Source: Ignavibacteria bacterium
Lineage (GTDB): Bacteria; Bacteroidota; Ignavibacteria; Ignavibacteriales; Melioribacteraceae
Direction of reading: 5' to 3'
Length of the DNA stretch: 59,115 bases
NCBI GenBank assembly: GCA_012719345.1
Contig: JAAYAN010000031.1
Coordinates: forward strand, 1 to 59,115
Each line of letters starts with the position of its first letter. The stretch's first letter is position 1. The notes under the pieces were generated by a model. It had not been told where the DNA came from and ran no database searches. It saw only the letters and a list, made by a program, of their open reading frames with translations. Position numbers and translations under genes: made by a program. This document shows positions 16,919 to 25,629 of this stretch, one piece after another.

Positions 16919-19168
16919 TCATTTCCTTGCAGAAGCTTCTAAAACAGCAATTGTTGCCAGATTTACAACCTCTTCCACCGTTGCTTTATATTGTATAAGA
17001 TGAGCGGGCAAGCGTGTTCCCATCAAAACCGGACCGATTGAAACAGCATTTCCCAAAAATTGAAGCGCCTGCATTGTAATATTTGCCGATTGCAAATCAG
17101 GAAATATCAGCACATTTGCATCACTGCTGAAATTGATGAAAGGGAAATATTCCTGGCGGATAAATTTATTGCGTGCCGTTGCAAGCTGCATTTCACCTTC
17201 TATAATCAACTCCGGATCAGATTTCTTGGCAATTTCTACAGCTTTTCTCATTTTTGCTGTTTCTCTGTTTTCGGCGCTTCCGAAATTTGAATAAGAAAGA
17301 AGTGCTGCTTTCGGTTCGAAGCCGAGATTCTTAACCATTCGTGCTGTAAGTAAAGCTATTTCAGCAATATCGTTTTCATCGGGATTTATATTTACTGCGC
17401 AATCTGCTAAAAATACGGTTTCCTTTGGTAAAACCATAAGATGATGACTTGAAACTTTTCGTACTCCCGGAGCCGGACCAATAATTTCAAGTATAATCCG
17501 TAAAGTTTCGGTATAGTGTGTTGATACTCCTCCTATCATTATGTCCGCTTCGCCGCTATGCACCATCATGGATGCAAAATAATCCCGTTTCCGCATCCTG
17601 TATTCAGCTTCGGGCTTTATTACTCCTTTGCGCTGCCGCATTTTAAAATATTCTTCGGCAAACGATTTATAGTGAATACTGTGTTCGGGATCCTCAGTTT
17701 TTATTCCGGTAAGATCAAGATTAAGCGTGTTTGCAATTTTTTTAATCTCGGTTTCGGAACCGAGTATTATGGGATGCGCAACACCTTCATCTGCTAAAAT
17801 CCTGCAGGCTTTTAAAACAACATCGCTGGTTCCTTCCGAAAAAACAATTCTTAAGGGCTGATGAGGAATACTGGCAGCAATATCTCTTATAACATTTTGC
17901 GTTAATCCGGCTGATATTTTTAATTTTTCGCGGTAAACGGTTTGTTCAAAGTTTTCTGAAGCCAAATCTTCTATTGATGCCTGATTCGCAACAGCTTCGG
18001 CAATACAGGACAAAATTCGCGGATCATCGGGTTTGGGTATAAAATAATCGGGACCGAAGCTTATATTGTTCCTGCTGTATGGTTGGATTTTTGTATCGGT
18101 TTTTTCTTCTCGTGCAAGATATGCTAAAGCTTTTATTGCGGCTGTTAACATTTCATCCGAAATGATTTTTGCTCCGCAATCGAGCGCTGCCCTTATTATA
18201 TATGGAAAGCTTAAAAAATTTAGAGCCGCGTTAGGAAATTCTCCCATCGAGGTAGAAATAAGTATGTCCTTACGGACTGCCTTCGCTTCTTCGTAAGTTA
18301 TTTCGGGGTCGGGCAAAGCCAAAGCAAAAACTATCGGGAACCTGTTCATTTTCAGAATATCTTCGGGGGTGATGTTAATTCCGGTTAGGTTTCCGATATA
18401 AACATCTGCTCCTTCAAAAGCATCTTTCAAGTTTTCTTTTCCGGGATTATCATTCGCATATTCAAGCCAAAAATCATTGATCACGCTGCGTTTACCGGAA
18501 ATCAATCCTGCTTTATCATAAACAAAAATATTATTTTTTACTGCGCCTATTTGTGAAAGCATTCGGGCAATTCCTATTCCCGAAACATTATCGGACGATA
18601 ATACGATTTTAACTTCGCTTATTTTTTTGTTGGCAAGATCAACTGCATTCAGCAATCCGGCCACTACGGCAACTGCTTCCGAGTAAAGATCAAGATTAAA
18701 AACCGGAATGCCGAGAATATTTTTTACTTTTTCGTAAATAATTATCCCATCGGGAAATTTTATATTTTGCAACGTTAAAGCTCCGAATGCCGGAGAAAGC
18801 GATTTGATAATTTCAACTGTTTTTTCGGGATCAGTTTCATTTATTTCAATATCAAAAGCATCAACATCAGCAAGTCTTTTAAACAGGACTGAAGTTCCTT
18901 CTAAAAAGGGTTTAACTGCATACGGACCGGCATTTCCTAAACCGGGAATGTAAGTTCCGTTTGAAATTACAGCAGCAAGATTTGCCCGTGATGTGTATTT
19001 AGCAGCCTCAACGCTGTTTTTAATAATTTCCATTGCCGGAAATGCTGCCCCGGGAATATATGCCATCTGCATTTCTCTTACAGAAGAACAGCTTTTAGTC
19101 GGTTTTATTTCAATTTTTCCGGCTTTAATATCGGAATGATATTTCAAGGCTTCTTCACGGCGTATCAT
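16919..19168 (-). CDS. Malic enzyme-phosphotransacetylase hybrid with a degenerate malic-enzyme domain
   Basis: This 749-residue protein has the MaeB layout, with an N-terminal malic-enzyme fold (1-about 405) and a C-terminal phosphotransacetylase-like domain (about 420-749). The fold aligns well ('MAYIPGAA', 'AAVISNGTYIPGLGNAG', 'VLFKRLADVD', 'FALALPDPEI'). However, the catalytic Lys is Thr 92, the metal-binding Glu-Asp is Gln 134-Asn 135, and the 'FHDDQHGTA' motif is 'FNLDLYSEA' (157-165). The nucleotide-binding GAGAAG is 'SDNVSG' (192-197), and 'PNQVNN' is 'PNAALN' (312-317). Tyr 37 and Asp 160 remain. Oxidative decarboxylation is therefore unlikely. The phosphotransacetylase half keeps 'LLSYSNFGSAEN' and in MaeB binds acetyl-CoA as an allosteric signal. 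The start is GGAG-supported and lies 14 bases inside the dikinase gene. Confidence 0.85.
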   Translation of the reverse strand: MIRREEALKYHSDIKAGKIEIKPTKSCSSVREMQMAYIPGAAFPAMEIIKNSVEAAKYTSRANLAAVISNGTYIPGLGNAGPYAVKPFLEGTSVLFKRLADVDAFDIEINETDPEKTVEIIKSLSPAFGALTLQNIKFPDGIIIYEKVKNILGIPVFNLDLYSEAVAVVAGLLNAVDLANKKISEVKIVLSSDNVSGIGIARMLSQIGAVKNNIFVYDKAGLISGKRSVINDFWLEYANDNPGKENLKDAFEGADVYIGNLTGINITPEDILKMNRFPIVFALALPDPEITYEEAKAVRKDILISTSMGEFPNAALNFLSFPYIIRAALDCGAKIISDEMLTAAIKALAYLAREEKTDTKIQPYSRNNISFGPDYFIPKPDDPRILSCIAEAVANQASIEDLASENFEQTVYREKLKISAGLTQNVIRDIAASIPHQPLRIVFSEGTSDVVLKACRILADEGVAHPIILGSETEIKKIANTLNLDLTGIKTEDPEHSIHYKSFAEEYFKMRQRKGVIKPEAEYRMRKRDYFASMMVHSGEADIMIGGVSTHYTETLRIILEIIGPAPGVRKVSSHHLMVLPKETVFLADCAVNINPDENDIAEIALLTARMVKNLGFEPKAALLSYSNFGSAENRETAKMRKAVEIAKKSDPELIIEGEMQLATARNKFIRQEYFPFINFSSDANVLIFPDLQSANITMQALQFLGNAVSIGPVLMGTRLPAHLIQYKATVEEVVNLATIAVLEASARK

Positions 19169-22100
19169 ATTTTTTCTCCATAATTTTATTTAGCGGAAAT
19201 TGCGATGCTGCTTCTTTCAAAGTATTAAAAAAAAGCGGAATGGGACGCACCTGCAAAATTTTTATTTCATATTCATCAAAAGCAAATTCAATATCAAGCG
19301 GATAACCGAATGTTTGTTCAAGTTTAAATGATAGGCTGCATAAATCGCAAAGTTCGGTATATTCAATTGCTGCACGGAAACGCTGGTGATAAAGTGTTTC
19401 AACTAATTTTACGCCGAAACCTTTTTCCGAATCGAAAACCATTTGTTCCTTTTTATCGCCTGTGAGATAATTAAATTTTAAATCGCCGTTTTCAATTCCG
19501 GCATCTTTAATAATTGTTATCTGATCAGCGGCAACAACCCCCGATACAATTCCCTCGCCAAGTCCCAGCCCCACGTTTACAATTATTTCATCGGGATTTC
19601 CGGAAGCAGTATTCATTGTCTGTATTACTCCCGAAATACGCGAATTTATCATCTGTTGTACTATAACTCCGCCATTTGTGTAATCTGCTGCTTCACCTAA
19701 AATCTGGCGGTTGTGTATTGCCCTTTCTGTCCACAACCCGCACCAGGTTTTTTTTAGATATTTTACAATTTGCTCTGCACCTTTAACATAAAGATAGGTT
19801 TCAAATTCTCCTGCATGTGCAGCAAATTCCGAATCTTCTTCATCGGACGAAGACCTTATTGCAAGATACGGTTCGGAATCCTTTTCCTTCCTTGTCCGCT
19901 TAAGTAAATCTTCGTAAGCATCAATTATTAAAAGTGTTATTTCCGGTGGAAGAATTATTGAATCCCATAATCTGCTTATAAATAAAGATTTTTCTTTGAA
20001 GCTTAATCCTTTCTCTTTAATTATCAAGTCTATGGCATTTTGAACAGTTCCTGCTTTAAAATCAATTTGGGAAATACTTAAAAGTGCCGGACTTATTTCT
20101 GTATTAAGAACATCCTTAAATACTTTATTTGTAATTACAAACCAATCGGGGGTTATGTTTGGTCCGAAATATTTTTGTATTTCCGCAAGATTTGCCGCTT
20201 TAAGTCCGATAAAGTCTCTAATTTCTAACCCGCCGCATTCGGGTGTTATTATGTAATTATCGGTAAATCTGTTTTTTTGTTCTTTTTCGGCAATCGTAAA
20301 TTTCTCGTTTAATCCTTTCACTTCGAGGCTTGAACAATCGAGCATCAGTTCGATGTTGTTTAATTGTTTTAAAATATACCGTGTCATTAAAAATTCCTTA
20401 GGCGGTAAAAATTTATCAATTTGGCTGGTTATTTTGGATTTAAGAGCAATCAGTCCGGAAGAAAAAAGTTCTTCTATTTCTTTAATTTTTTCTGCAGGAA
20501 AAACCGGAAGATCGTCTTTTTGCGGGATTATTTCCATTAAACCGTTTATAAACTTATATTTACGGAAAAATGAAGCGCGTGCAAACAGAATTTGCGAAAG
20601 GGTATCGAGCCCGGTTAAATGGTTTAATATTTCTTCGGCCTCACAAAATAGTTCTGCTGCTTCTGCTTTTGTTATTTCGGCAATATAATTTAAAGCTTCG
20701 TTTCCGCAAAAAGGATTACTGATAAGTTCATTTAATAAAAGAGATTTTTCTTCGGCAGGAAAACCGGATTTTAAAAGTGTATCTGAAACTAATATTTCAT
20801 AAACGGCATATCGTAAAATATTGTTCTGCTCAATTTTGCTGAACTCTTTTATAAGCGAATGTTTATATTTTATTATTTTGCCTCTTAACTGAAGAATATC
20901 GGAAGAATCTTCAAGCAAATATAATTCGGAATAAGCTTCGGCAAGTTTTCGGAGATTATCGTAAATACTTGTAACAGTTTCTTTCTTAAAAATTACTGCC
21001 GCACCTTCGCTGCCATTTAGTATTATTATATCTTCATCATTTAAAATATTTTCCTTTTCGCGTATTTGTGTTCTTTTCAAAATGTTCAATCCGTAACGGA
21101 TATCATTTTCCTCTTTAAACTTAAGTGTTTTGTACACGAGACTTCGGGTGCCGCTTTTGTAATAATCCCATATTCCGCTGATAATAATTGCCGGTTTATT
21201 AAATTGATTTGCTATAATTCCGGCGTGGCTTAAAATTCCGCCGCTTGTAGAAATTATTCCCGATGAATTAAAAATATACGCGCTGTCTTCGGGGGTAATT
21301 CTGTCCGTTACAAGAATGCTGTTTTTAAAATCCTCGGGATTTCTGGATTCAATACCCAGAACGGCTTTTGCCACCGTTTTCCCAGGAGATGCTTTCAATC
21401 CGGAAACAATTATATTATCGGAAAAATGCTTTGTTCGTTTACGATGATTGATTTCGAAAAAGCTTTCAGTTATTTGAATAATCTCTTTTTCAAGTTCGGC
21501 TGGCAAAGGTTCTTTAAATGGAATTACATAGTTATTTTGCCTGAGCATTATGGCAAGATGATGAACATTGAGAATAATATTATTCTTCCAATCGTCCGAA
21601 ATATATTTTCGGTATCTGTAAATGCCGTTTCCTTCGGAAACAAGCGCAAGACGTATTATACCGAGATAATCGCGAAGGACAAACACGTTTAGTTTTCCGC
21701 CGAGAAGCGGAAGTTCGGCTTTTTGGATTTCGCAGTTTTCAATATATCCAGTTGTAATAAAACTTAGTGTCTTTTCAAAAAGGATAAGAAGTTTTGCAAT
21801 AAGCACAAAATGTTTAACCGAATCCGTATTGCTTCCTAAAATATCGGCAAAAAATTCTGCTTCGTGAATTCTCTGAAAAAGTTCGGGATGAGCGGTTTCG
21901 AACAAATTGCCGGTAAATATTATTTCGCCGCTTTCAATTCCTTCGTTAAGTTTGGCAAAAACTTTTTTCTCGAGATCAAGCTGTCCTATTGTGCCGTTTT
22001 TATTACTATCGTTGGTTATCAGTTCTATTCCCAGCTCATCAAAACATCTGTTTATCAAAGTACTTATTTCGTAATTAAAAATCCGCGTTTTGCAATCTCT

Positions 22101-24203
22101 ATATTCTCCTTTTCCGTCCCAAAAATCCTTTTCCGAAGATTTGGCAAGATAACCGGAATTCAGCAGAATATTTCTTCTATCCCTCGATAAAATATAATTT
22201 AATGGCAGCGTGCCCCAATCCGTAAACAATTTAGCCCACTCGGCAGTTGCTTTGCCGATTGCCTCTTTATCAAGAATAAGCGAGCCGGTAATCCAATCCA
22301 AATCCATCATATAAGGCAGAAGACAAAACAGCAATTCTATCTTTTCGCACAAAACGCCTAAATCAACAGTCCTTTCCTTGTCGAACCGGGCGTGTATGCG
22401 TGTCCCCTTTAAATTCACAGCAAAATCCATTTTACTTAAAAAATGACGGACCGAATCGAGATTTAAATTAGGATGCGAATTGATTTCGTAATTGCTGATT
22501 CCGAAATATTCAAGATCAATCATCCCACCCTGAAGCGGGGGCGAGTAATCGATGCGTATAAAGAGCGGATGATTTCTGAAAAAAACGTAATAATGAACTT
22601 CATTGCCGTATAAAAAGATATTAACAATCGGAAAGGATTTTTGTCCGTAAAGAATCTGGCGTTTGAATGAATCCCGTAAAATTTTTACCGGATAAGGAAT
22701 TTCGTTCGGGTTTGCGGATTCGGGTTCAAAATCGGCATAACGGATATTTTTCAATTCGAACTGGATTTTTCCGTTTCCGAAAAGAATTAAATCAATTGTG
22801 CGGTTCGGCGACCGGGTTTTATCCACAAGTTTGAACCCGAATTTTAAACCCTTTTGATGAAGATACCTTTTAAGTCCGTGAATAGTTGTAACTTTTTCAA
22901 TATCCGGAGGATCTTCAAAAGTCTGTAAAAGTCTTGTAAGCGCGGCGGAAATTCCTTTGCCGGAGCATAATTCAAGTTCGTTCAAAGTTTTCGATTTCAA
23001 ATCGTCGTATTTTTGCTTTATTTGGCTGCACTCTTCAGAAAGATTTTCGAACAGCAGGATGTACCACTCAACAATTTTATCCAATCTGTTTAATATCGCA
23101 CGGATTTTTTCTTCGTTAAGCGGAGCAATATCAAGTATAAGCTTAAGCGCTTCGGCGTGCTCGAGGTTGTATTCTTTAAATAACGAAATTTGCGAAGATT
23201 TATCTGTACTGCCGTAACCGAAAGAAACGTTTCCGCGAAGTTCAAAAATAAGCAACGGGTTTCCGATATCGGCATTAAGGCATTGTTGAAGAAAAAAAGC
23301 TTCGGTTTCATCGAGAAAGAAAGGAAGAGAATTTTTAATTTCTGCCGGGCATTTCTTTTCGCAGAATATTCCTTCGTTAATTCTGCTCCAGCCGGAAAAG
23401 GCAATAATGTTTTTAAGAATTTTTTCGCCGCAGATTTTTTCTGCATTCACAACAGAGTCCGCAAAATCAGTAATTTTTCCGGAGGAAATAAGACTGAAAA
23501 TATCCGAATAACCCGCGCAGGTAAATTTAAGATATTTTTCCAGTTTTTCGTATTCCGAAAATCCCAGCAGTTTCCTGGCGTTTTCGGGTGGCAGTTTTCT
23601 GTTTTCTAAATCCAGTAATCGTGATGCAAAGTATTTAAGCTTTAAATCGTCATTCTGCAAAAAGAAAAACAAAAGCGGATCTATAACTGGTTTTGCTGCC
23701 GTAATTGCCGCACCCGAAAAAATTGCAGCGGCAAGTTTAATATTTTCTTCGGCAAACAGCAGATTTTTATCATCTGTAATTTCTTCGGTTATTGTTTTAA
23801 TTAATTGCATATCCGGACGTATTCTTTCACTGCCCATTTTTTGCAGGTACAACTGAAGCGTAAGATTTAATACTTTTTTGCTGTTTAATTTCAAAACGCT
23901 TCGGAATAGAGCGCTGGCCATATCGGAATTATACAAGAAATTTTCTAAAAATGAGTTTAATATCACCGCTTTATCAAGATCGGCATTTTTAATATTTGCC
24001 AAATATCTGCTCAAAAACTGCCGTGTTATATCTATGCTGTTTTTGTTTTGAAGAGGCTGAAATGAACTTGCAAGATTATAAAACGCTGCGCTGCTGAAGT
24101 TTTTGGCGGAAGATATTTCAATTATTTTTTCTAAAATTAATTCAGCATTTTGTGAACTGTTTATTCTTTCCGAAACACTACCCTGTAATTCATTATTTTC
24201 CAT
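19155..24203 (-). CDS. Giant PEP-synthase-like dikinase (PEP/pyruvate-binding domain protein)
   Basis: This protein has 1682 residues. About residues 1-960 are unlike any family I can name and are mostly helical, with a beta-rich middle part. A phosphohistidine swivelling domain follows ('ISTSGGILSHAGIIANQF', His near 993). Next is a helical linker (about 1050-1320). A C-terminal ATP-grasp domain of the PPDK N-terminal type has 'IGLKAANLAEI' (near 1333), 'IRSSSDEEDSEFAAHAGEFET' (near 1454), 'GLGLGEGIVSG' and 'LQVRPIP' (near 1651). The ATP and His machinery looks intact, but the PEP/pyruvate TIM barrel is missing. The order His domain then ATP-grasp is that of glucan/phosphoglucan water dikinases, and the reverse of PEP synthase. 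The acceptor is unknown. It is co-transcribed with the malic-enzyme-like gene. Confidence 0.8.
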   Translation of the reverse strand: MENNELQGSVSERINSSQNAELILEKIIEISSAKNFSSAAFYNLASSFQPLQNKNSIDITRQFLSRYLANIKNADLDKAVILNSFLENFLYNSDMASALFRSVLKLNSKKVLNLTLQLYLQKMGSERIRPDMQLIKTITEEITDDKNLLFAEENIKLAAAIFSGAAITAAKPVIDPLLFFFLQNDDLKLKYFASRLLDLENRKLPPENARKLLGFSEYEKLEKYLKFTCAGYSDIFSLISSGKITDFADSVVNAEKICGEKILKNIIAFSGWSRINEGIFCEKKCPAEIKNSLPFFLDETEAFFLQQCLNADIGNPLLIFELRGNVSFGYGSTDKSSQISLFKEYNLEHAEALKLILDIAPLNEEKIRAILNRLDKIVEWYILLFENLSEECSQIKQKYDDLKSKTLNELELCSGKGISAALTRLLQTFEDPPDIEKVTTIHGLKRYLHQKGLKFGFKLVDKTRSPNRTIDLILFGNGKIQFELKNIRYADFEPESANPNEIPYPVKILRDSFKRQILYGQKSFPIVNIFLYGNEVHYYVFFRNHPLFIRIDYSPPLQGGMIDLEYFGISNYEINSHPNLNLDSVRHFLSKMDFAVNLKGTRIHARFDKERTVDLGVLCEKIELLFCLLPYMMDLDWITGSLILDKEAIGKATAEWAKLFTDWGTLPLNYILSRDRRNILLNSGYLAKSSEKDFWDGKGEYRDCKTRIFNYEISTLINRCFDELGIELITNDSNKNGTIGQLDLEKKVFAKLNEGIESGEIIFTGNLFETAHPELFQRIHEAEFFADILGSNTDSVKHFVLIAKLLILFEKTLSFITTGYIENCEIQKAELPLLGGKLNVFVLRDYLGIIRLALVSEGNGIYRYRKYISDDWKNNIILNVHHLAIMLRQNNYVIPFKEPLPAELEKEIIQITESFFEINHRKRTKHFSDNIIVSGLKASPGKTVAKAVLGIESRNPEDFKNSILVTDRITPEDSAYIFNSSGIISTSGGILSHAGIIANQFNKPAIIISGIWDYYKSGTRSLVYKTLKFKEENDIRYGLNILKRTQIREKENILNDEDIIILNGSEGAAVIFKKETVTSIYDNLRKLAEAYSELYLLEDSSDILQLRGKIIKYKHSLIKEFSKIEQNNILRYAVYEILVSDTLLKSGFPAEEKSLLLNELISNPFCGNEALNYIAEITKAEAAELFCEAEEILNHLTGLDTLSQILFARASFFRKYKFINGLMEIIPQKDDLPVFPAEKIKEIEELFSSGLIALKSKITSQIDKFLPPKEFLMTRYILKQLNNIELMLDCSSLEVKGLNEKFTIAEKEQKNRFTDNYIITPECGGLEIRDFIGLKAANLAEIQKYFGPNITPDWFVITNKVFKDVLNTEISPALLSISQIDFKAGTVQNAIDLIIKEKGLSFKEKSLFISRLWDSIILPPEITLLIIDAYEDLLKRTRKEKDSEPYLAIRSSSDEEDSEFAAHAGEFETYLYVKGAEQIVKYLKKTWCGLWTERAIHNRQILGEAADYTNGGVIVQQMINSRISGVIQTMNTASGNPDEIIVNVGLGLGEGIVSGVVAADQITIIKDAGIENGDLKFNYLTGDKKEQMVFDSEKGFGVKLVETLYHQRFRAAIEYTELCDLCSLSFKLEQTFGYPLDIEFAFDEYEIKILQVRPIPLFFNTLKEAASQFPLNKIMEKKYDTP

Positions 24204-24282: not shown

Positions 24283-24300
24283 GCCCGGCAGCTGCCGGGC
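24283..24300 (-). terminator. Rho-independent terminator of the T9SS cargo gene
   Basis: A perfect 18-base palindrome, GCCCGGCAGCTGCCGGGC, is followed on the minus strand by TTTTTTATTTTATTTTA (24300 down to about 24266). It sits 31-48 bases after the T9SS protein stop and also insulates the downstream dikinase operon. Confidence 0.9.
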
Positions 24301-24330: not shown

Positions 24331-25629
24331 TTACTTCATCAAAATCAGCTTCTTCACCGAAGAAAAAACTCCTGCCTGCAATTTGTATAAATAAACGCCT
24401 GAAGCAAGTTTTGAAGCATCAAATTTTACTTCGTAATTTCCTGCAGGCTGTTGCTGGTTTACAAGGGTTGCTACTTCCTGACCGAGAAGGTTGTAGACTT
24501 TTAATGTTGCCAACACACCCCGTCCTTCGGATACCCCTCTCGAGAGGGGACTTTCAGGGATTGAATATTTAATTGTTGTTACCGGGTTGAACGGATTCGG
24601 ATAGTTTTGCGAAAGTAAAAGTTCTGTTGGAAGAACTGCAGCATCAACGGTAATTTCATTTGAATAAGTGAATGAACCGTCGAGATCGATTTGTTTCAAT
24701 CTATAAGAGTAAGAGTATGAAGCTTGAGTAAGATTATCAGTGAACGAATATTCTTTTGGAGCATTAGAATTCCCTGCTCCTTCAATAAAACCAATTGTTT
24801 CCCACTTTGCGCTTTGCTCTATGCCCTTTGCTTGTTTTTGTACCTCAAATCCATAATTATTAATCTCAGTTATGGTTTGCCAAAAAAGTTCAACACTTTG
24901 TCCGTTTAAACTTCCGCGGAAAAGATTTAATTCAACCGGTGTCGGGTTTTCATTTGCACTAACTCTGATATCATCCAAAGCAAATTCATCCATTGAACCG
25001 CTTCCTGTAATTTCATTCCCTTTCCAGCGTAAATATATTATAGAATTTGGCGCAATGTTTACCGGAATGCTTATTGTCCTGTCGTTGCGTACCCAGACCG
25101 GAGTTGGGTCAGCTTCCAAAGGAGAAGTAAAATCTAAAGCCGGCATAGGACTAAAGTCGCTTCCATCTGATGAATATTCGAAATTAAATGAATTTGATTT
25201 CCCCTGATCGTTTAAACACCATATTTCGTATTCGATGTTAATTGTATTTATTATGCCGCCGGTGCTATTAATCAGTCTTAAAGTAATAGAACCGGGCGTA
25301 AAGTCGGTACCTACAGGCTGGATTCCCAAAGCATGATTATCAGTATCAACAATAAAAGAATAAATTCCTCCGGGAGTAACTCCACCTGGTTTTAATCCTC
25401 TGGCAAAATCACCTGTAGTTAAAGAATAACCATAATTAAGCGTACTGTCGGAAAGACCTATAATTTCCCAGTTATCAGAATCGAGCTGTCCTGCAAGAGG
25501 TTCCGGTGCGAATCCAGAACCGTTAAAGTCATCGAATGTGATGTGAGCAAAACCTGTTGCCGGTATTTGTACTTGAGAGAAGATGCAGACAGAAAACAAC
25601 AGGAGAAAGAATGTTGAAAAACACTTCAT
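24331..25629 (-). CDS. Secreted protein with type IX secretion C-terminal sorting domain
   Basis: This 432-residue protein has a signal peptide (1-19, 'LLFSVCIFS') and a beta-sandwich-like region of unknown role ('DEFALDDIRVS' near 220). A short fibronectin-like segment follows ('GQSVELFWQTITEINNYGFEVQ'). The C-terminal sorting domain starts at 'LSQNYPNPFNPVTTIKYSIPE' and ends in 'GVYLYKLQAGVFSSVKKLILMK', the type A T9SS pattern. The protein should be exported through the Sec and type IX systems. Two repeat elements lie inside the gene in frame. One is a CCCCTCTCGAGAGGGG palindrome that adds about 15 residues ('SPLSRGVSEGRGVLA') to the sorting domain, and the other is a heptamer array encoding 'QAKGIEQSAKW'. 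A GGAGG ribosome site fits the start. Confidence 0.85.
   Translation of the reverse strand: MKCFSTFFLLLFSVCIFSQVQIPATGFAHITFDDFNGSGFAPEPLAGQLDSDNWEIIGLSDSTLNYGYSLTTGDFARGLKPGGVTPGGIYSFIVDTDNHALGIQPVGTDFTPGSITLRLINSTGGIINTINIEYEIWCLNDQGKSNSFNFEYSSDGSDFSPMPALDFTSPLEADPTPVWVRNDRTISIPVNIAPNSIIYLRWKGNEITGSGSMDEFALDDIRVSANENPTPVELNLFRGSLNGQSVELFWQTITEINNYGFEVQKQAKGIEQSAKWETIGFIEGAGNSNAPKEYSFTDNLTQASYSYSYRLKQIDLDGSFTYSNEITVDAAVLPTELLLSQNYPNPFNPVTTIKYSIPESPLSRGVSEGRGVLATLKVYNLLGQEVATLVNQQQPAGNYEVKFDASKLASGVYLYKLQAGVFSSVKKLILMK
24511..24556. repeat. Palindromic repeat element inserted in frame
   Basis: CCCCTCTCGAGAGGGG (24534-24549) is a perfect 16-base palindrome. It is followed on the minus strand by TATCCGAAGGACGGGGTGTG, with a second mini-stem TCC-GAA-GGA. 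I recognise this shape as a dispersed intergenic repeat of Bacteroidota-like genomes, but I could not count copies here. Only this copy was noticed in the window. Confidence 0.7.
24805..24832. repeat. Four-unit heptamer repeat in the T9SS protein gene
   Basis: The consecutive units are CTTTGCG, CTTTGCT, CTATGCC and CTTTGCT. A 7-base period cannot keep codon phase, so each unit is read in a different frame, giving 'QAKGIEQSAKW' on the minus strand. The overall gene stays open. Confidence 0.65.

Follow-up and report, generated by a model that had tools for sequence, protein, structure and literature searches.

The window, by which we mean the whole 59,115-nucleotide stretch of DNA that was analyzed, carries on its minus strand an open reading frame (16919–19168) with an ATG start and 749 codons, uninterrupted by an internal stop or frameshift. 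It encodes a 749-aa hybrid malic enzyme that is probably non-catalytic, here termed MaeB2. Pfam assigned malic (residues 17–115), Malic_M (165–362), and PTA_PTB (429–742) domains, and a phmmer search against PDB gave the MaeB proteins of Bdellovibrio and E. coli as full-length matches (E ≤ 1e-157). Structure alignment with Bdellovibrio MaeB gave 39–40% identity over the full length. These results bear out the full MaeB layout that the initial annotation had claimed, with a malic enzyme (ME) half (residues 1–410; 17939–19168, minus strand) fused to a PTA-like half (residues 429–742; 16943–17884, minus strand). The start of MaeB2 is overlapped by 14 nt by the gene for a dikinase-like protein of 1682 aa (19155–24203, minus strand). 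A GC hairpin with a T run, a candidate terminator-like element based on a consensus match, lies just upstream of this two-gene unit (24283–24300, minus strand). The minus-strand gene at 24331–25629 encodes a protein with an LSQNYPNPFNP-type C-terminal region, as is typical of a secretion sorting signal.

The window residues were mapped onto Bdellovibrio MaeB, in which Y52, K107, E149, and D174 are the catalytic residues and 207-GAGASA-212 is the NADP motif (PMC7902834). The catalytic Y52 was kept as Tyr 37 (19058–19060). The general acid/base K107 was replaced by Thr 92 (18893–18895), E149-D150 by Gln 134-Asn 135 (18764–18769), HDDQHGT by NLDLYSE (residues 158–164; 18677–18697), the NADP-binding GAGASA by SDNVSG (192–197; 18578–18595), and PNQVNN by PNAALN (312–317; 18218–18235; all on the minus strand). 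Within NLDLYSE, D160 corresponds to D175 and was kept, and L159 stands where the Lys-orienting D174 was. G207, A208, and G209 of the NADP motif became S192, D193, and N194, and further losses were observed at K250 (W234), N300 (L285), and N331 (L316). Of the catalytic set, the window protein therefore retains Y52 only, with T, Q, and L at the positions of K107, E149, and D174. In a 125-row alignment, the six residues Y, K, E, D, D, and D were intact in all 111 ordinary MaeBs, and the exceptions were confined to the window protein and its clade described below.

The residue list of the initial annotation was thus reproduced in full by the mapping, and its claim that the ME half is dead is strongly supported. 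The alignment with Bdellovibrio MaeB contained no gaps through the catalytic motifs, indicating that the residues were lost rather than shifted. We rejected an alignment slip as the source of the losses, because the motifs align without gaps and the losses are common to the clade. That MaeB2 is still an active malic enzyme using displaced residues is highly improbable; Tyr 37 and D160 remain, but the aligned places lack the Lys, the Glu, and the nucleotide-binding glycines, and the motifs are ungapped. Judged by its sequence, the ME half very probably has no malic enzyme activity left. A search of one literature library gave no relevant paper on malic enzyme pseudoenzymes or catalytically inactive malic enzyme paralogs.

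A search for relatives found a 55% match to the window MaeB2 in genome G012, next to a counterpart of the gene that precedes MaeB2 in the window. A profile search of 164 genomes of the order returned exactly seven MaeB2s at 1334–1513 bits, and the next best match scored 928 bits; MaeB2 is thus a second MaeB found in 7 of the 164 genomes. In the tree, the seven proteins grouped as a single clade with an SH-aLRT of 100, separate from the order's 33 ordinary MaeBs. The other MaeB2s were 49–55% identical to the window protein, and the ordinary MaeBs 40–43%. Genome contigs were also scanned widely with the ME half as query, which retrieved ordinary MaeBs only. Phylogeny and sequence identity indicate that MaeB2 is a distinct clade of hybrid malic-enzyme paralogues.

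The catalytic Lys and Glu were absent in all seven MaeB2s. In the six other than the window protein, K107 was replaced by M or I, E149 by K, D174 by E, and D175 by N, with D150 remaining D. These six keep GAGTVG at the NADP motif as well as D233 and R242, and have Q at K250. All seven proteins have thus lost Lys and Glu, and only the window copy lacks the Rossmann motif and D150 as well. The MaeB2 of G087 (L143:1845-4109) has a 4-residue insertion right after the conserved catalytic Tyr that resembles a tandem duplication (LPGA).

When the ordinary MaeBs were compared with these six MaeB2s, 33 positions in the ME half and 5 in the PTA half were invariant within each group but carried a different residue in the two groups (Fisher p = 0.03, a guide only because sites are not independent), indicating that the ME half was rebuilt and has been maintained since. 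The replacements fixed in these six proteins (K at E149, E at D174, and N at D175), together with the intact Rossmann motif, could be a new active site. MaeB2 would then be a retooled enzyme whose metal-independent site (Lys 149, Glu 174, Asn 175, and bound NAD(H)) catalyzes a different reaction, with a related acid as substrate, and perhaps supplies the dikinase; the window copy would have lost even that. The excess of ME switches and the retention of GAGTVG, D233, and R242 argue for such an enzyme. However, position 107 has no general acid/base, the loss of E149 and D175 should remove Mg binding, and the window copy, with Q, L, and a broken Rossmann motif, nevertheless keeps its partner. We consider this explanation unlikely overall and, for the six relatives, a serious rival to a regulatory role.

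Selection was estimated from one congeneric pair (G085/G087), which does not include the window copy. MaeB2 gave a dN of 0.055 and a dS of 1.18, with values of 0.073 and 1.27 for the ME half and 0.036 and 1.02 for the PTA half. The resulting dN/dS of about 0.05 is rough, because a dS of about 1.2 is near saturation, yet it is far from neutral, and MaeB2 is under purifying selection in this pair. The window protein was 46–52% identical to the other MaeB2s in the ME half and 54–60% in the PTA half; in pairs among the others, the ME half was better conserved than the PTA half, except in the close pair G085/G087. The window protein kept 143 of 219 clade-invariant sites (65%) in the ME half versus 119 of 145 (82%) in the PTA half (Fisher p = 5e-4, again to be read as a guide). 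Among residues invariant in all 23 others, it lost 21 of 118 ME sites and kept 48 of 51 PTA sites. Its end branch was 1.11, versus 0.28 for G012. These comparisons indicate further degeneration of the ME half in the window copy, alongside continued constraint on its PTA half. The long end branch and the lost ME sites would also be expected of a decaying duplicate en route to a pseudogene. We find this improbable, since the reading frame is open over 749 codons, the PTA half retains nearly all of those invariant sites, the partner is intact, the Lys and Glu losses are common to the relatives, and the one testable pair is under purifying selection.

An AlphaFold2 model of the window MaeB2, built from a 24-sequence alignment, had a mean pLDDT of 84.7. 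Its ME half overlaid the Bdellovibrio ME domain at 1.7–1.9 Å with a target TM of 0.94–0.95, and the best match of the whole modelled chain was MaeB. This result is expected because the input alignment is homologous; the model shows that the sequence is compatible with the MaeB fold, in accord with the proposal that the fold is kept.

In the PTA half, the CoA contacts R535, Y576, R581, Q683, N718, P735, and Q748 (Bdellovibrio numbering) were kept in the window protein, and R535, the CoA 3'-phosphate Arg, was kept in all seven MaeB2s. Mutation of R535 in Bdellovibrio MaeB abolishes acetyl-CoA binding (PMC7902834). The acetyl-pocket residues T614, Y721, and K722 were replaced by A591, M699, and Q700 in the window protein. 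Across the seven MaeB2s these positions are A/V, M/L, and Q/H, compared with T/S, Y, and K in the order's ordinary MaeBs. The view that this half looks normal therefore holds for the seven CoA contacts but not for the acetyl pocket. From these residues, acetyl-CoA sensing is plausible, and CoA itself or some other acyl-CoA may be what binds.

In all seven genomes, MaeB2 lies directly behind the gene of the partner, a protein of about 1,700 aa. Besides the 14-nt overlap in the window, the two genes overlap by 4 nt in two genomes and are separated by 1–29 nt in the rest. The partner was found in the same 7 of the 164 genomes as MaeB2; outside the order, none was found in samples of approximately 390 genomes from the class and again from the phylum, or in plasmids. 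The initial annotation had read MaeB2 as an acetyl-CoA-sensing pseudoenzyme, which is supported in part; it had missed that MaeB2 belongs to a conserved clade always encoded behind a dikinase-like protein.

The partner has a phosphohistidine (PEP-utilizers) domain at residues 961–1008 (21180–21323, minus strand) with the motif GGILSHAG and an invariant His 993, and a C-terminal ATP-grasp (PPDK_N) domain at residues 1331–1655 (19239–20213, minus strand) with invariant K1335, R1450, E1639, Q1651, and R1653. The motifs of both domains were intact in all six aligned sequences. PEP synthase and pyruvate phosphate dikinase share these two domains and their catalytic motifs. Unlike them, the partner has its His domain before the ATP-grasp, an N-terminal region of about 900 aa, and no PEP/pyruvate barrel (PF02896 had no match in the 1682-aa sequence at E up to 1). 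PF02896 proteins the size of PTS-EI or PPDK are encoded separately in the seven genomes. We rejected the possibility that the partner is the only PEP-forming dikinase of the cell, because a PPDK-size PF02896 protein is encoded elsewhere in six of the seven genomes and a fragment of one in the seventh.

In glucan, water dikinase, an N-terminal substrate part is followed by the His domain and then by a C-terminal ATP domain. The domain order of the partner is alike, but no CBM45 or GWD1-type domain was matched by Pfam in the partner of the window or of the relatives, and there was no sign of a glucan substrate. The N-terminal part ahead of the His domain had no convincing Pfam or PDB match. Residues of approximately 430–640 form a highly conserved block (HGLKRYLHQ, YGNEVHYYV, and PPLQGGMIDL). 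A six-sequence model of this region had a mean pLDDT of 56, without a Foldseek match at E 0.001 or better, and VIA-align returned only generic helical bundles. By its domain content, the partner is a large, new kind of putative phosphate-transferring protein.

In G085, G115, and G087 (L139, L140, and L143), the tail-to-tail neighbor of MaeB2 is a gene for a sodium-pump decarboxylase beta subunit. That gene is accompanied by an OadA-like gene in G085 and G115, both of the genomes where this was tested. In one genome, a pyruvate kinase gene is located a few genes upstream of the pair. These flanks hint at the pyruvate/oxaloacetate node; the flanks otherwise differ among genomes, and OadB is present in all seven anyway.

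An ordinary MaeB was present in five of the seven MaeB2 genomes. The window genome (rated 100% complete, 323 contigs) had no PF00390 match besides MaeB2, and no ordinary MaeB was found in G115 (76% complete). In the order-wide profile search, the near-complete genomes G037, G062, G041, and G017 also had no full MaeB match. Ordinary MaeB may have been lost now and then within the order. The co-occurrence in five genomes would suit a model in which MaeB2 joins the ordinary MaeB of the same cell in mixed hexamers and tunes it, and the active site of Bdellovibrio MaeB is built from both protomers (PMC7902834). This model would also accommodate the drift of the ME half in the window genome, where no ordinary MaeB was found, but that correlation rests on one genome. 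Moreover, most of the order has ordinary MaeB without MaeB2, and MaeB2 is linked to the dikinase gene rather than to maeB. We therefore regard mixed hexamers as quite unlikely.

For MaeB2, a regulatory role is more likely than one in malate breakdown. The protein has the ME and PTA layout and the same predicted fold as the MaeBs of Bdellovibrio (6zng) and E. coli (8jzo/9krw) and keeps most CoA-site-1 residues of the Bdellovibrio type. Unlike these enzymes, it lacks the catalytic Lys, Glu, and Asp, has three acetyl-pocket residues replaced, and has a dikinase-like partner gene; the window copy lacks the NADP motif as well. We propose, with about even confidence, that MaeB2 responds to CoA or an acyl-CoA and serves the dikinase-like protein as a non-catalytic partner. 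The two proteins would be made from one two-gene unit and would form a complex, in which the PTA half would still bind CoA or acyl-CoA and the ME half would act as a dimerising or docking module. A ligand-driven rotation like that of MaeB would be relayed to the dikinase partner instead of a malic-enzyme site, so that control would run from MaeB2 to the partner. The latter would use ATP to phosphorylate its own histidine and then transfer the phosphate to some acceptor. The three replaced acetyl-pocket residues and the occurrence in only seven genomes count against a regulator. More tentatively, the pair may be a so far undescribed two-part system in which a dead malic enzyme, as an (acyl-)CoA sensor, gates ATP-driven phosphohistidine transfer near the pyruvate/oxaloacetate node.

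Ordinary annotation would name MaeB2 a malic enzyme. Malate-to-pyruvate flux would then be wrongly attributed to the organism, in which the search turned up no other such enzyme. The finding also points to a dikinase family without a known substrate. Long-range allostery has hybrid malic enzymes as one of its models, and if the regulatory reading is true, a natural clade that keeps the sensor without the chemistry would show that such a module can be redeployed to govern a different protein.
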